Shown here in pieces: positions 33,259 to 47,003 of a stretch of DNA of 64,000 nt. This DNA comes from Desulfovibrio sp. (GTDB lineage Bacteria; Desulfobacterota; Desulfovibrionia; Desulfovibrionales; Desulfovibrionaceae). Positions within the stretch are counted from its first letter, which is position 1. Each line of letters starts with the position of its first letter. The notes under the pieces are model-generated. The model worked only from the letters and a program-made list of their open reading frames with translations. It made no database searches and was not told the origin of the DNA. The position numbers and the translations under genes were made by a program. The stretch lies in NCBI GenBank assembly GCA_030145055.1, contig JAQYWK010000002.1, forward strand, positions 496,001-560,000, given 5' to 3'.

Positions 33259-33351
33259 TAAATGCTTGACGAAAAGAATAACTTTTCGGCATAGTTGTAT
33301 TAATAATAGGTAAAACTGTTTGTCACACTCAACATGACTTGGGAGAGGACA

Positions 33352-33627
33352 ATGAACAAAAGTGAATTGATCAAAAATCTTGCTGAAGAAAAAGGACTCC
33401 ATGTAGATGAGTCCTCCGAAATCGTTGACGCATTTGTCGATGCTATCAAAGAAGCTCTAGTCCGCGGTGACAGAGTTGAAATCAGGGGCTTCGGCAGTTT
33501 CAAAATGAAAGAATACCAAGGCTACACAGGCAGAAATCCGAAAACGGGTTCTGTAGTAAGTGTTACACCTAAAAAATTACCGTTCTTCCGTCCAGGTAAG
33601 GAACTTAAAGAGTTTTTAAACGGTTAA
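33352..33627 (+). CDS. HU/IHF family DNA-binding protein
   Basis: This 91-residue protein has the HU/IHF fold: helices in MNKSELIKNLAEEKGL, the RGFGSFKMKEYQGY strand, and the DNA arm GRNPKTGSVVSVTPKKLPFFRPGKELKEFL. The FFRPGKEL ending and R-rich saddle resemble IHF-alpha more than the HU at 16850. The start is ATG 33352, preceded by GGGAGAGG. Its stop TAA overlaps the ATG of the selenoprotein gene by one base (TAATG), indicating translational coupling. Confidence 0.93.
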   Translation: MNKSELIKNLAEEKGLHVDESSEIVDAFVDAIKEALVRGDRVEIRGFGSFKMKEYQGYTGRNPKTGSVVSVTPKKLPFFRPGKELKEFLNG

Positions 33628-34517
33628 TGCGCTTATACATATATGTTTTTCTTTTCCTTGCCAGCTTTGGACTTACGTTCCAAGCACACGCTGGCAAGGA
33701 CACGGTATTGTCTATAGCATATACGTCTAACACCTTCGGGACAGTTAATCCCTGTCCTTCGTGAGGCGGGAAAACACTTGGTGGGCTGGCCCGGCGGGCT
33801 GGTTATCTTCAAGATCTTCGAGACTCTAAGGGTCCCGAGATTTTTCTCGTTGGTGGAGCGTTTGAATTTTTATCAACTTCCGGCGAACCTATCTCTGAGA
33901 AAAAGAGAGAGGCTCTCACTGATGCTTTCCAAATCATGAATTATGATTTAGGAGTTCTAAGCCCTGCTGAAGCAGTTTTTTTAAAAGAATCTCCGAACGG
34001 CACTCCTAAAAACTGGATAGACTGTAAGGATGCATCTTTTAAAATTATACCCTTAGAGAATGGCAAAAAGGCAGGGTTCATCATTTTACCTTTTCTAGAA
34101 AAGGGCTCGAATGATGTACCTGAAGAACTAATCAGTGAAGTTGCTGCACTTATAAAAAAGTATAGAGATAAAACAGATATCCTGATTGGCATCAGCTCTT
34201 TAGGCTATTTCAGAGAAAAGAAACTGCTCGCATCTCCACAGCTTACTGAGGTTCCTATGGACATCCTGCTTGGTGGCGGAGATGGACCGGGTATGACCGG
34301 AACTCTTGTAAATAGCAGAAAAACTTTATGGATACGCAGTTACCCTACAGGTAAAGCAGTTAACAGAATTGATATTTTCCAGTGGCCGTCTCATGATGCT
34401 GATTTCAAGTGGACTTCAGGACAAAATGTTAAGTGGTTTCTTCAAAGCCTGCTTGAAAATGTTCGTGAGGAACCAGCTGTATTGAAGCTCATTAAAGGCA
34501 TTTCAGACGAAAAGTAA
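33627..34517 (+). CDS. UshA-like selenoprotein (UGA-encoded Sec at codon 46)
   Basis: Read from ATG 33627 with UGA 33762-33764 as selenocysteine, the frame is open for 296 residues. Residues 1-22 are a Sec signal peptide (hydrophobic core, AHA-like cleavage site), so the product is periplasmic. Next come AYTSNTFG, the redox motif CPSU (Cys43, Sec46) and GGKTLGGLARRAGY. This resembles the 5'-nucleotidase UshA start, but the usual HTND metal motif is degenerate, which favours a thiol/selenol role. A SECIS-like hairpin follows the UGA. A conventional call would start at ATG 33936 and lose the export signal and active site. I recall a family named UshA-like (seleno)protein in sulfate reducers. 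It is coupled to HU/IHF upstream; dapA follows 24 bases later. Confidence 0.85.
33786..33802 (+). promoter_or_regulatory. Bacterial SECIS-like hairpin
   Basis: Arms CUGGCCC and GGGCUGG pair over 7 bp (two G-U) around the loop GGC, and two further G-U pairs can extend it. The loop starts 28 bases after the UGA and begins with GG. Bacterial SECIS elements need an apical G and a loop about 16-37 bases downstream, so this fits. The local sequence is strikingly GC-rich for this genome. Confidence 0.7.
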
Positions 34518-34541: not shown

Positions 34542-35420
34542 ATGACTTTCCAAGGAGCATTCACTGCTCTGGTAACTCCGTTCAAGGACGGGGGAATTGA
34601 TCAGGACGCTTATCGCGAACTGATTGAGTGGCAGATTGAGCAAGGAATCGACGGACTTGTTCCATGCGGAACAACCGGCGAAGCGGCAACTATGACTCAC
34701 GACGAACAGGGTGAGGTTATAAGAATCTGTGTCGAGCAGGCCAAGGGACGCGTCCCGGTAATTGCTGGCGCGGGTTCTAACAATACTAAAGAAGCCGTAT
34801 ATCTTACAAAACTTGCTAAAAAAGCAGGTGCAGAAGCCACACTCCAGATCACTCCTTACTACAATAAACCGACCCCTGAAGGATTGGTAGCGCATTTTAA
34901 GGCTCTTTCAGATGAAGCTTCTATGCCTTTCATTCTCTACAATGTTCCGGGAAGAACAGGCCTTAACGCCCTGCCTGAAACAATTGCAAGAATTGCGACC
35001 GAAGTTCCTGATGTTTTCGGAGTGAAAGAAGCTACGGGCAACATGGCGCAATGTTCAGATCTTATTGAACAGTGCCCTGAAGGATTCGTTGTTTTCTCTG
35101 GAGATGATTTCACAGTGCTACCGCTCCTTTCTTTGGGCGGACATGGTGCAATCTCTGTAGTATCAAATATCGCACCTAAAATGATGTCTGACATGTGTGC
35201 AGCGTTCCGCGCTGGCGATGCGGTAAAAGCGAAAGAGCTTCACTACAAGCTCCAGCCGCTTAGCAGAGCAATGTTCATTGAAACAAACCCAATTCCAGTG
35301 AAAACATCACTAGGTATGATGGGTAAGCTTGATGCATCATTCAGACTTCCAATTGTTCCGCTACTTTCTGAAAATGAGATTAAGCTAAAAGCTATCTTAA
35401 AAGAAAACGGAATAATCTAA
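34542..35420 (+). CDS. dapA: 4-hydroxy-tetrahydrodipicolinate synthase
   Basis: This 292-residue aldolase condenses pyruvate and aspartate semialdehyde at the entry to lysine and diaminopimelate synthesis. The substrate loop PCGTTGEAATM, the catalytic Tyr in LYNVPGRTGLN and the Schiff-base Lys in GVKEATGNM are present in order and at usual positions. An AGGAGG site precedes the ATG. The gene ends an operon-like run from prfB through the selenoprotein, closed by a strong terminator. Confidence 0.97.
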   Translation: MTFQGAFTALVTPFKDGGIDQDAYRELIEWQIEQGIDGLVPCGTTGEAATMTHDEQGEVIRICVEQAKGRVPVIAGAGSNNTKEAVYLTKLAKKAGAEATLQITPYYNKPTPEGLVAHFKALSDEASMPFILYNVPGRTGLNALPETIARIATEVPDVFGVKEATGNMAQCSDLIEQCPEGFVVFSGDDFTVLPLLSLGGHGAISVVSNIAPKMMSDMCAAFRAGDAVKAKELHYKLQPLSRAMFIETNPIPVKTSLGMMGKLDASFRLPIVPLLSENEIKLKAILKENGII

Positions 35421-46004: not shown

Positions 46005-47003
46005 ATGAAAAATCTCACTTCCGAGCAGGATTTTCTTGCGCTCATAGACAAGTATTTTCCATCTAACAATGGACACGTCACACTCGGCAGAGGCGACGAC
46101 TGCTCTATTTTGCGCATAAATGGTCAGCTCTGCATCAGCAAAGACCTGTTCATAGAAGATGTGCATTTTCGCCGTTCGTACTTCTCACCTGCCGACATCG
46201 GATACAAATCTCTTGCCGTCAATATCAGCGATATTTCTGCAATGGGGGGCGTTCCTAAAGCATTCGCACTAGGGCTGATTGTTCCTGATGGACTAGATAA
46301 AGAATATTGGGATTCACTACTAAAGGAAATGGCGAAGCTCGCAAACAAGACAGGACTTATCCTCGCTGGCGGCGACTTATGTAAAGGACCAACGCTCGGA
46401 ATCTCGGTCACCGTATGGGGTGAACCATATCGCGCGGAAGGATTAGATTCAGTGGACAAAGGACGATTTTTAACCAGAGGCAACGCTAAACCTGACGACA
46501 TACTCTTCATACACGGATCAATAGGCCTTGCGCGCACAGGATTACTACTTCTCGAAGAAACTGGAACATTCGCCAGTAAAGAATACCCTGCGAGTGTACA
46601 AGCCCATTTAAGACCCGAAATCAGAACCGAGACAGGTAAAGCATTGTCAGCCTCCGCAGCCGTAACAGGGTTGATGGATCTATCTGATGGTTTAGCAAGA
46701 GATCTGCCCCGCTTTATTAATCAATGCGAAACCGCGTTCGGGGCCGAGATATCATTACCAACTGAAATACTTCATGACGAAATTTTAAAATACGCCAAAG
46801 CTAAAAATATTTCAGCGGAAGAGCACGCTTTTAGAGGCGGCGAAGATTACGCACTTTTCGGAGCGGCCACCGCAGATAAATTTGAAGAACTTATGGATAC
46901 TGTTGACGGCATCATCCAAATCGGAACTCTCACTGATAAGCCAGAAATAATTTTGAACGGGAAAAAATTCTTGGAAAAAGGATTCGATCACTTTTCGGGT
47001 TAA
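46005..47003 (+). CDS. thiL: Thiamine-monophosphate kinase
   Basis: This 332-residue enzyme phosphorylates thiamine phosphate to the active diphosphate. The ATP-grasp-like metal motif GRGDDCSIL lies near residue 28. SKDLFIEDVHFRRSY holds substrate contacts, NISDISAMGGVPKAF is the family signature, and GGDLCKGP and GLMDLSDGLARDL supply further metal ligands. It lies 9 bases after the helicase gene. The convergent MATE-type gene ends only 3 bases away, with no terminator between. Confidence 0.95.
   Translation: MKNLTSEQDFLALIDKYFPSNNGHVTLGRGDDCSILRINGQLCISKDLFIEDVHFRRSYFSPADIGYKSLAVNISDISAMGGVPKAFALGLIVPDGLDKEYWDSLLKEMAKLANKTGLILAGGDLCKGPTLGISVTVWGEPYRAEGLDSVDKGRFLTRGNAKPDDILFIHGSIGLARTGLLLLEETGTFASKEYPASVQAHLRPEIRTETGKALSASAAVTGLMDLSDGLARDLPRFINQCETAFGAEISLPTEILHDEILKYAKAKNISAEEHAFRGGEDYALFGAATADKFEELMDTVDGIIQIGTLTDKPEIILNGKKFLEKGFDHFSG

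Follow-up and report, generated by a model that had tools for sequence, protein, structure and literature searches.

A Desulfovibrio gene read through an in-frame UGA encodes a member of UshA-like (seleno)protein family 2 with a proposed periplasmic redox role

A stretch of 64,000 nucleotides from Desulfovibrio sp., a relative of the sulfate reducers (GenBank assembly GCA_030145055.1, contig JAQYWK010000002.1, positions 496,001 to 560,000; hereafter the window), contains a forward-strand frame that opens at ATG 33627 and closes with a TAA whose last base is 34517; its sole internal stop is the TGA at 33762-33764 (codon 46; context NPCPS-U-GGKTLGGLARR). This raises the question as to whether the TGA terminates translation or is read as selenocysteine (Sec, U) and, in the latter case, what the resulting protein does. 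A first-pass annotation, made from the sequence alone, had described a frame open from 33627 to 34517 apart from this one codon and had taken the product to be a selenoprotein. Translation gives exactly such a frame, of 296 residues, and the codon usage of homologues, the Sec machinery of the genome, a hairpin kept in Sec-containing relatives and the distribution of SelB all favour the same view: the UGA at 33762 is almost certainly a sense codon for Sec, and the protein a genuine selenoprotein. The features of the gene are as follows.

33627..34517, forward strand: gene of UshA-like selenoprotein family 2; 296 aa counting U46, TAA stop codon within the range (translation and match to NF049981)
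33627..33692, forward strand: probable signal peptide, residues 1-22, ending in AHA and followed by GKD (sequence, hydrophobicity 2.49; cleavage site deduced)
33753..33755, forward strand: codon of Cys43, the partner cysteine in C-P-S-U (Cys in 83/84 non-redundant homologues)
33762..33764, forward strand: UGA, almost certainly read as selenocysteine U46 (TGA in 90/103 and TGC in 13/103 homologues)
33784..33804, forward strand: candidate bacterial selenocysteine insertion sequence (SECIS) hairpin 3' of the UGA, nine pairs, loop GGC (hairpin comparison between Sec and Cys homologues)
33864..33866, forward strand: codon of Glu80, near-invariant (82/84) and, by alignment, near the place of the second 5'-nucleotidase metal motif
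34215..34217, forward strand: codon of Glu197, the same residue in all non-redundant homologues (84/84)

For this gene, a mechanical list of open reading frames (ORFs) offers only 33936-34517 (193 aa), and the export signal and the C-P-S-U motif are therefore lost, just as had been anticipated for a standard annotation starting at 33936. The gene is nevertheless not hidden from current NCBI models, as had been supposed, since NF049981 covers the read-through protein.

One line of evidence comes from the homologues. At the position of U46, 103 distinct rows have TGA in 90 cases and TGC in 13, i.e. Sec in 90 and Cys in 13. These rows derive from 98 loci plus the window, some being best-scoring matches and others picked for diversity, and represent part of the 186 genomes with the family; identical or contained rows, rows with fewer than 150 query residues and two repeats of the window gene (L001 and L043) were dropped before counting. 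With 90 of the 103 homologues having TGA here as well, a sequencing error is excluded for practical purposes, and because the alignable region of the homologues begins before the UGA, a late start at residue 104 fails as an explanation. Moreover, the genome itself (3.9 Mb in 7 contigs, estimated to be 99.99% complete) encodes selA (607.6 bits), selB (374.7 bits), selD (329.6 bits) and tRNA-Sec (80.1 bits), all above cut-offs, and an explanation by missing machinery therefore fails as well; its selD contains one in-frame TGA of its own. Both the inspection of homologues for Cys or U at residue 46 and the search for sel genes had been proposed in the first-pass annotation. Suppression by another amino acid was rejected, as the site is only TGA or TGC in the 103 homologues. 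The same exchange led us to reject a true stop or pseudogene, and the chance that the UGA is a real stop, in a truncated gene, a pseudogene or an erroneous sequence, is negligible: its sole support is that table 11 reads the codon as a stop, against homologues in which the codon is TGA or TGC and the frame is intact on both sides, and a genome with Sec machinery.

The distribution of SelB follows the form of the gene. A first survey covered 60 genomes, of which 25 have the Sec form, 10 have stop-free genes only, 6 had a form that was unseen and 19 lack the family; SelB was above cut-off in 25/25, 4/10, 1/6 and 16/19, respectively. Of the six genomes with unseen form, the five lacking SelB turned out to have a gene without a stop (PCPTC in the one that was read), and the single SelB-positive genome has one TGA. 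With these genomes resolved and the window's own genome added, SelB is above cut-off in 27/27 Sec-form genomes vs. 4/15 stop-free (Cys-form) genomes (Fisher p 3e-7, relatedness not corrected). In the stop-free set Cys was read in nine genomes, the other six (G177, G341, G184, G185, G186 and G191) being counted by the lack of a stop in the match, and in the Sec-form set G318 and G181 were counted by a TGA in the match row and the others read. Several of these draft genomes are only 67-86% complete, and the absence of SelB from a draft can be a gap. A separate observation concerns genus g39, where the loci L072, L073, L104, L105 and L044 show tandem pairs of the family in which a Cys and a Sec copy are immediate neighbours; SelB is present in the three genomes tested (G318, G321 and G328). 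Elsewhere in the window, 46062-46529 gives a weak match to the SelD model (E 2.5e-8, below cut-off) and may encode a further protein of the AIR-synthase-related superfamily.

Bacterial SECIS elements have a G in the loop. When only hairpins with a G at loop position 1 or 2 are considered, the best one begins its loop 28 nt past the UGA in 57 of the 69 non-redundant Sec rows, compared with 2 of 12 Cys rows. In this register the Sec rows form on average 7.55 of 9 pairs, vs. 6.02 when synonymous codons are redrawn from the usage of the same gene (standard deviation 0.12, maximum 6.35 in 500 redraws), whereas the Cys rows form 4.92 pairs vs. 4.55 (standard deviation 0.29); the rows are related, and the comparison with the redraw is thus not a probability. 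By this comparison, Sec homologues, unlike Cys ones, keep the hairpin beyond what the amino acids demand, which is the difference expected for a SECIS element.

The protein belongs to a family that already has a name, as the first-pass annotation had considered possible. Against the NCBIfam model NF049981 ("UshA-like (seleno)protein family 2"), the read-through protein scores 301.4 bits (cut-off 140) over profile positions 1-261 of 262, while the 193-aa ORF covers only 79-261 with 186.7 bits. The read-through match is far beyond chance and, by profile span, score and motif, the window protein is a new member of NF049981, from which no feature distinguishes it. A 2026 review (PMC13188914) lists UshA-like selenoprotein family 2 as GenBank annotated and with the motif CxxU, which C43-P-S-U46 fits, and an UshA-like CxU family appears in the 2008 Global Ocean Sampling survey (PMC2398784). 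Across the order, 186/348 genomes have a match to NF049981 (E <= 0.001), 180 of them above cut-off. Other resources returned little: Pfam (E up to 1) matches nothing in the window protein and gives scattered weak matches among 64 homologues, with no Pfam family matched by more than two members; PHROGs yields nothing at E up to 0.01; and a single-sequence scan of the genome contigs confirmed no relative. No described function for NF049981 was found in the literature searched, which covered few subscription papers. What is known is thus the name and motif of the family, and the window gene adds one member to a family without a described function in that literature. The same review counts more than 110 prokaryotic selenoprotein families with mostly unclear functions. 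Given the distribution above, a function established here would apply to a selenoprotein that is widespread in Desulfovibrio-type bacteria and probably periplasmic, and would bear on whether redox chemistry can arise from a phosphatase fold. Naturally occurring Cys versions provide ready comparison proteins, 11/15 of them in genomes where SelB did not reach its cut-off.

The window protein is probably exported to the periplasm. A count over the 35 residues of the frame that precede the domain, made irrespective of start codons, finds a hydrophobic stretch in the window protein (2.49) and, at >=1.8, in 97/103 homologue rows; the signal peptide that the first-pass annotation had called clean is supported to this extent, its cleavage site being deduced. 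By a predicted model, the domain has the 5'-nucleotidase/SoxB metallo-domain fold, as in the catalytic domain of 5'-nucleotidases (UshA/CD73) and SoxB, without the usual metal motifs. The di-metal site of 5'-nucleotidases is made up of the motifs TNDxHG, GD, GNHE, GH and GGH. In the window protein the first of these has N35 and F37, the second lacks its Asp and the third reads LSPAE; where 5'-nucleotidases have GH and GGH the protein has S-S and G218, at a point where the alignment is weak (2.1 bits). The motifs are replaced in most of 84 non-redundant family members, so that the degeneracy noticed in the single sequence holds across the family, and an active di-metal phosphoesterase was rejected on these grounds. 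UshA and other 5'-nucleotidases (COG0737) also have a C-terminal substrate-binding domain. The 273-residue mature window protein is spanned by the catalytic domain and lacks a C-terminal one; compared with UshA/CD73 it shares the fold, is without metal motifs and C-terminal domain, and has gained the C/U pair. A second UshA-like protein of the same genome, encoded outside the window (G000:C3:460563-461441, L132), on visual inspection retains GDD, GNHEFD and GGQTH, but its first metal motif is changed.

Conservation was counted in these 84 rows, which share less than 80% identity. (The sets of 84, 69 and 12 rows are identity-filtered subsets; alignment A1 contains 64 of the 84, leaving out 20 rows that have more than one U or that combine Cys at the site with a U in the tail.) P42 (84/84), C43 (83/84) and P44 (81/84) are followed by G52 and G53 (84/84 each), R56 (83/84) and R57 (84/84), and further along by E80 (82/84), E197, G216 and G218 (84/84 each), W235 and R237 (82/84 each). 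The window protein departs from the family at position 192, with Leu instead of the Trp seen in 80/84.

Taken together, the explanation that we favour, with some confidence, is that the gene encodes an exported NF049981 selenoprotein, which would use its Cys and Sec for redox reactions in the periplasm together with c-type cytochromes. Cys43 and Sec46 would lie in the loop after the first (former) metal motif, where they may act as a redox pair of the selenenylsulfide/dithiol type, in or close to the former two-metal site, in a pocket that Glu80, Glu197, Trp235 and Arg237 would help to shape. Redox use of the pair is probable. A nucleotidase fold turned into a thiol/selenol protein had already been proposed in the first-pass annotation; the fold and the loss of metal ligands are supported here, and the redox role is still a proposal. 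The substrate might be a disulfide, a persulfide or another sulfur or selenium species. Less certainly, electrons could be exchanged with periplasmic multiheme c-type cytochromes, which we propose because the sister family NF041198 fuses a similar motif region to a tetraheme cytochrome c554-like domain; by this analogy a cytochrome partner is conceivable, if somewhat doubtful.

NF041198 has PCGU at the place equivalent to C-P-S-U. It resembles the window protein in a related N-terminal domain, with Sec just past the first vestigial metal motif, and in a GG-x-x-R segment; it differs in having CxU (not CxxU) and a C-terminal tetraheme c554-like part, which the window protein lacks. Membership of the latter in NF041198 (PCGU) was rejected (53.4 bits vs. 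a cut-off of 275; motif PCPSU; 296 aa without CxxCH). Four CxxCH are present in 10 of the 11 NF041198 loci (out of 20) that the motif search matched, and Pfam identifies Cytochrome_C554 in the one locus scanned. Two of seven NF041198 neighbourhoods encode large multiheme cytochromes (9 CxxCH in L178; 9 and 16 in L180), and the other five have none. The window's own genome encodes a separate four-CxxCH protein resembling the fused c554-like part (G000:C1:910197-910673). Over 348 genomes, this c554-like protein and the selenoprotein family are both present in 146, the family only in 40, the cytochrome only in 39 and neither in 123, i.e. the cytochrome is found in 146/186 genomes with the family vs. 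39/162 without (E <= 1e-15 for the cytochrome; E <= 0.001 for the family, weak fragments included; relatedness not corrected). The two are associated, but co-occurrence establishes no firm link between them as partners. It is possible, if rather speculative, that a branch of the metallophosphoesterase (5'-nucleotidase/SoxB) fold dropped its two metals and converted the pocket to a redox centre of selenol and thiol that is connected to multiheme c-type cytochromes, as a fusion in one family and as separate proteins in Desulfovibrio-type bacteria.

Relatives in other phyla, e.g. on Armatimonadetes and Abditibacteriales contigs, have CGC and four CxxCH without Sec, and the thiol version may therefore be older than the Sec version. 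UshA-like Sec candidates beyond Desulfobacterota were seen on a Chloroflexi contig (L150, PCSTU) and a Rokubacteria contig (L156, PCGU, four CxxCH). A phylum-wide search with NF041198 (297 genomes) gave a match in 250, above cut-off in 57; many of the matches listed have one TGA, and several share one genome. There may thus be more to the superfamily of UshA-like selenoproteins than the two families named so far. Three NF041198 genes (L175, L176 and L184) lie near a DHH/DHHA2 protein that by eye resembles Mn-dependent pyrophosphatases (Pfam on L176 only).

Several observations weigh against the favoured explanation or parts of it. SelB is also present in 16/19 genomes without the family, so SelB alone predicts nothing on the family. 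In seven of the 69 Sec rows at most five of the seven inner hairpin pairs form, Rfam at gathering scores finds nothing in the window, and the fold of the single 47-nt stretch 33759-33805 is not stabler than shuffles (z 0.47); the case for a SECIS element therefore rests on the comparison between homologues. One homologue (L086, in G018; motif RPIKAUQGK) keeps Sec but has Ile in place of Cys43. Whole clades have the family or the c554-like protein without the other, and shared ancestry may explain their co-occurrence. Finally, the window gene lies beside housekeeping genes (HU and dapA), which are uninformative on redox.

Other functions have to be considered for the C/U pair. It could bind a soft metal ion, or a selenium or sulfur species, and pass it on without redox turnover, which we consider unlikely. 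What speaks for it is a set of extra Sec copies of family 2 in three loci (L106-L108; also L181-L183), ordered ccmF-like gene, TPR gene, selenoprotein, P-type ATPase and M23 peptidase, in which the ATPase, on visual inspection, carries a Cys cluster (CxCCGG) and resembles heavy-metal pumps, with the ccmF-like and TPR genes preceding the selenoprotein. For two of these loci Pfam bears out part of the arrangement: ccmF and TPR at the locus of L108 (L181), E1-E2 ATPase and M23 at that of L106 (L182). Against this, the window copy lacks such neighbours, the arrangement at three loci may be incidental, and Sec is usually retained for redox rather than binding. These clusters are a possible functional lead. 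A SoxB-like or sulfur-transfer enzyme, whose target would be a persulfide or thiosulfonate on C43 or U46, is rather improbable; SoxB, a thiosulfohydrolase with a dinuclear Mn site, shares the predicted fold, as compared by structural ranges only. Less probable still is a thiol reductant that keeps heme-binding cysteines reduced during cytochrome c maturation: the three extra copies adjoin ccmF-like genes and the sister proteins contain c-type heme motifs, but the window copy is unlinked to ccm genes. That the protein is still a phosphoesterase or nucleotidase, with the C/U motif merely structural, is very improbable, the retained fold and GG-ARR segment being set against the replaced metal motifs and the meagre Pfam results described above.

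The genes flanking the selenoprotein gene in the window are the following.

33334..33627, forward strand: HU-type DNA-binding protein gene, its stop overlapping the selenoprotein start (ORF list)
34542..35420, forward strand: dapA, the downstream neighbour (ORF list and neighbourhood comparison)

The selenoprotein ATG overlaps the HU stop codon by one base (TAATG, 33625-33629). Within 2 kb downstream, dapA occurs in at least 22 of 43 homologue neighbourhood rows, a lower bound because the ORF picker often took antisense ORFs.
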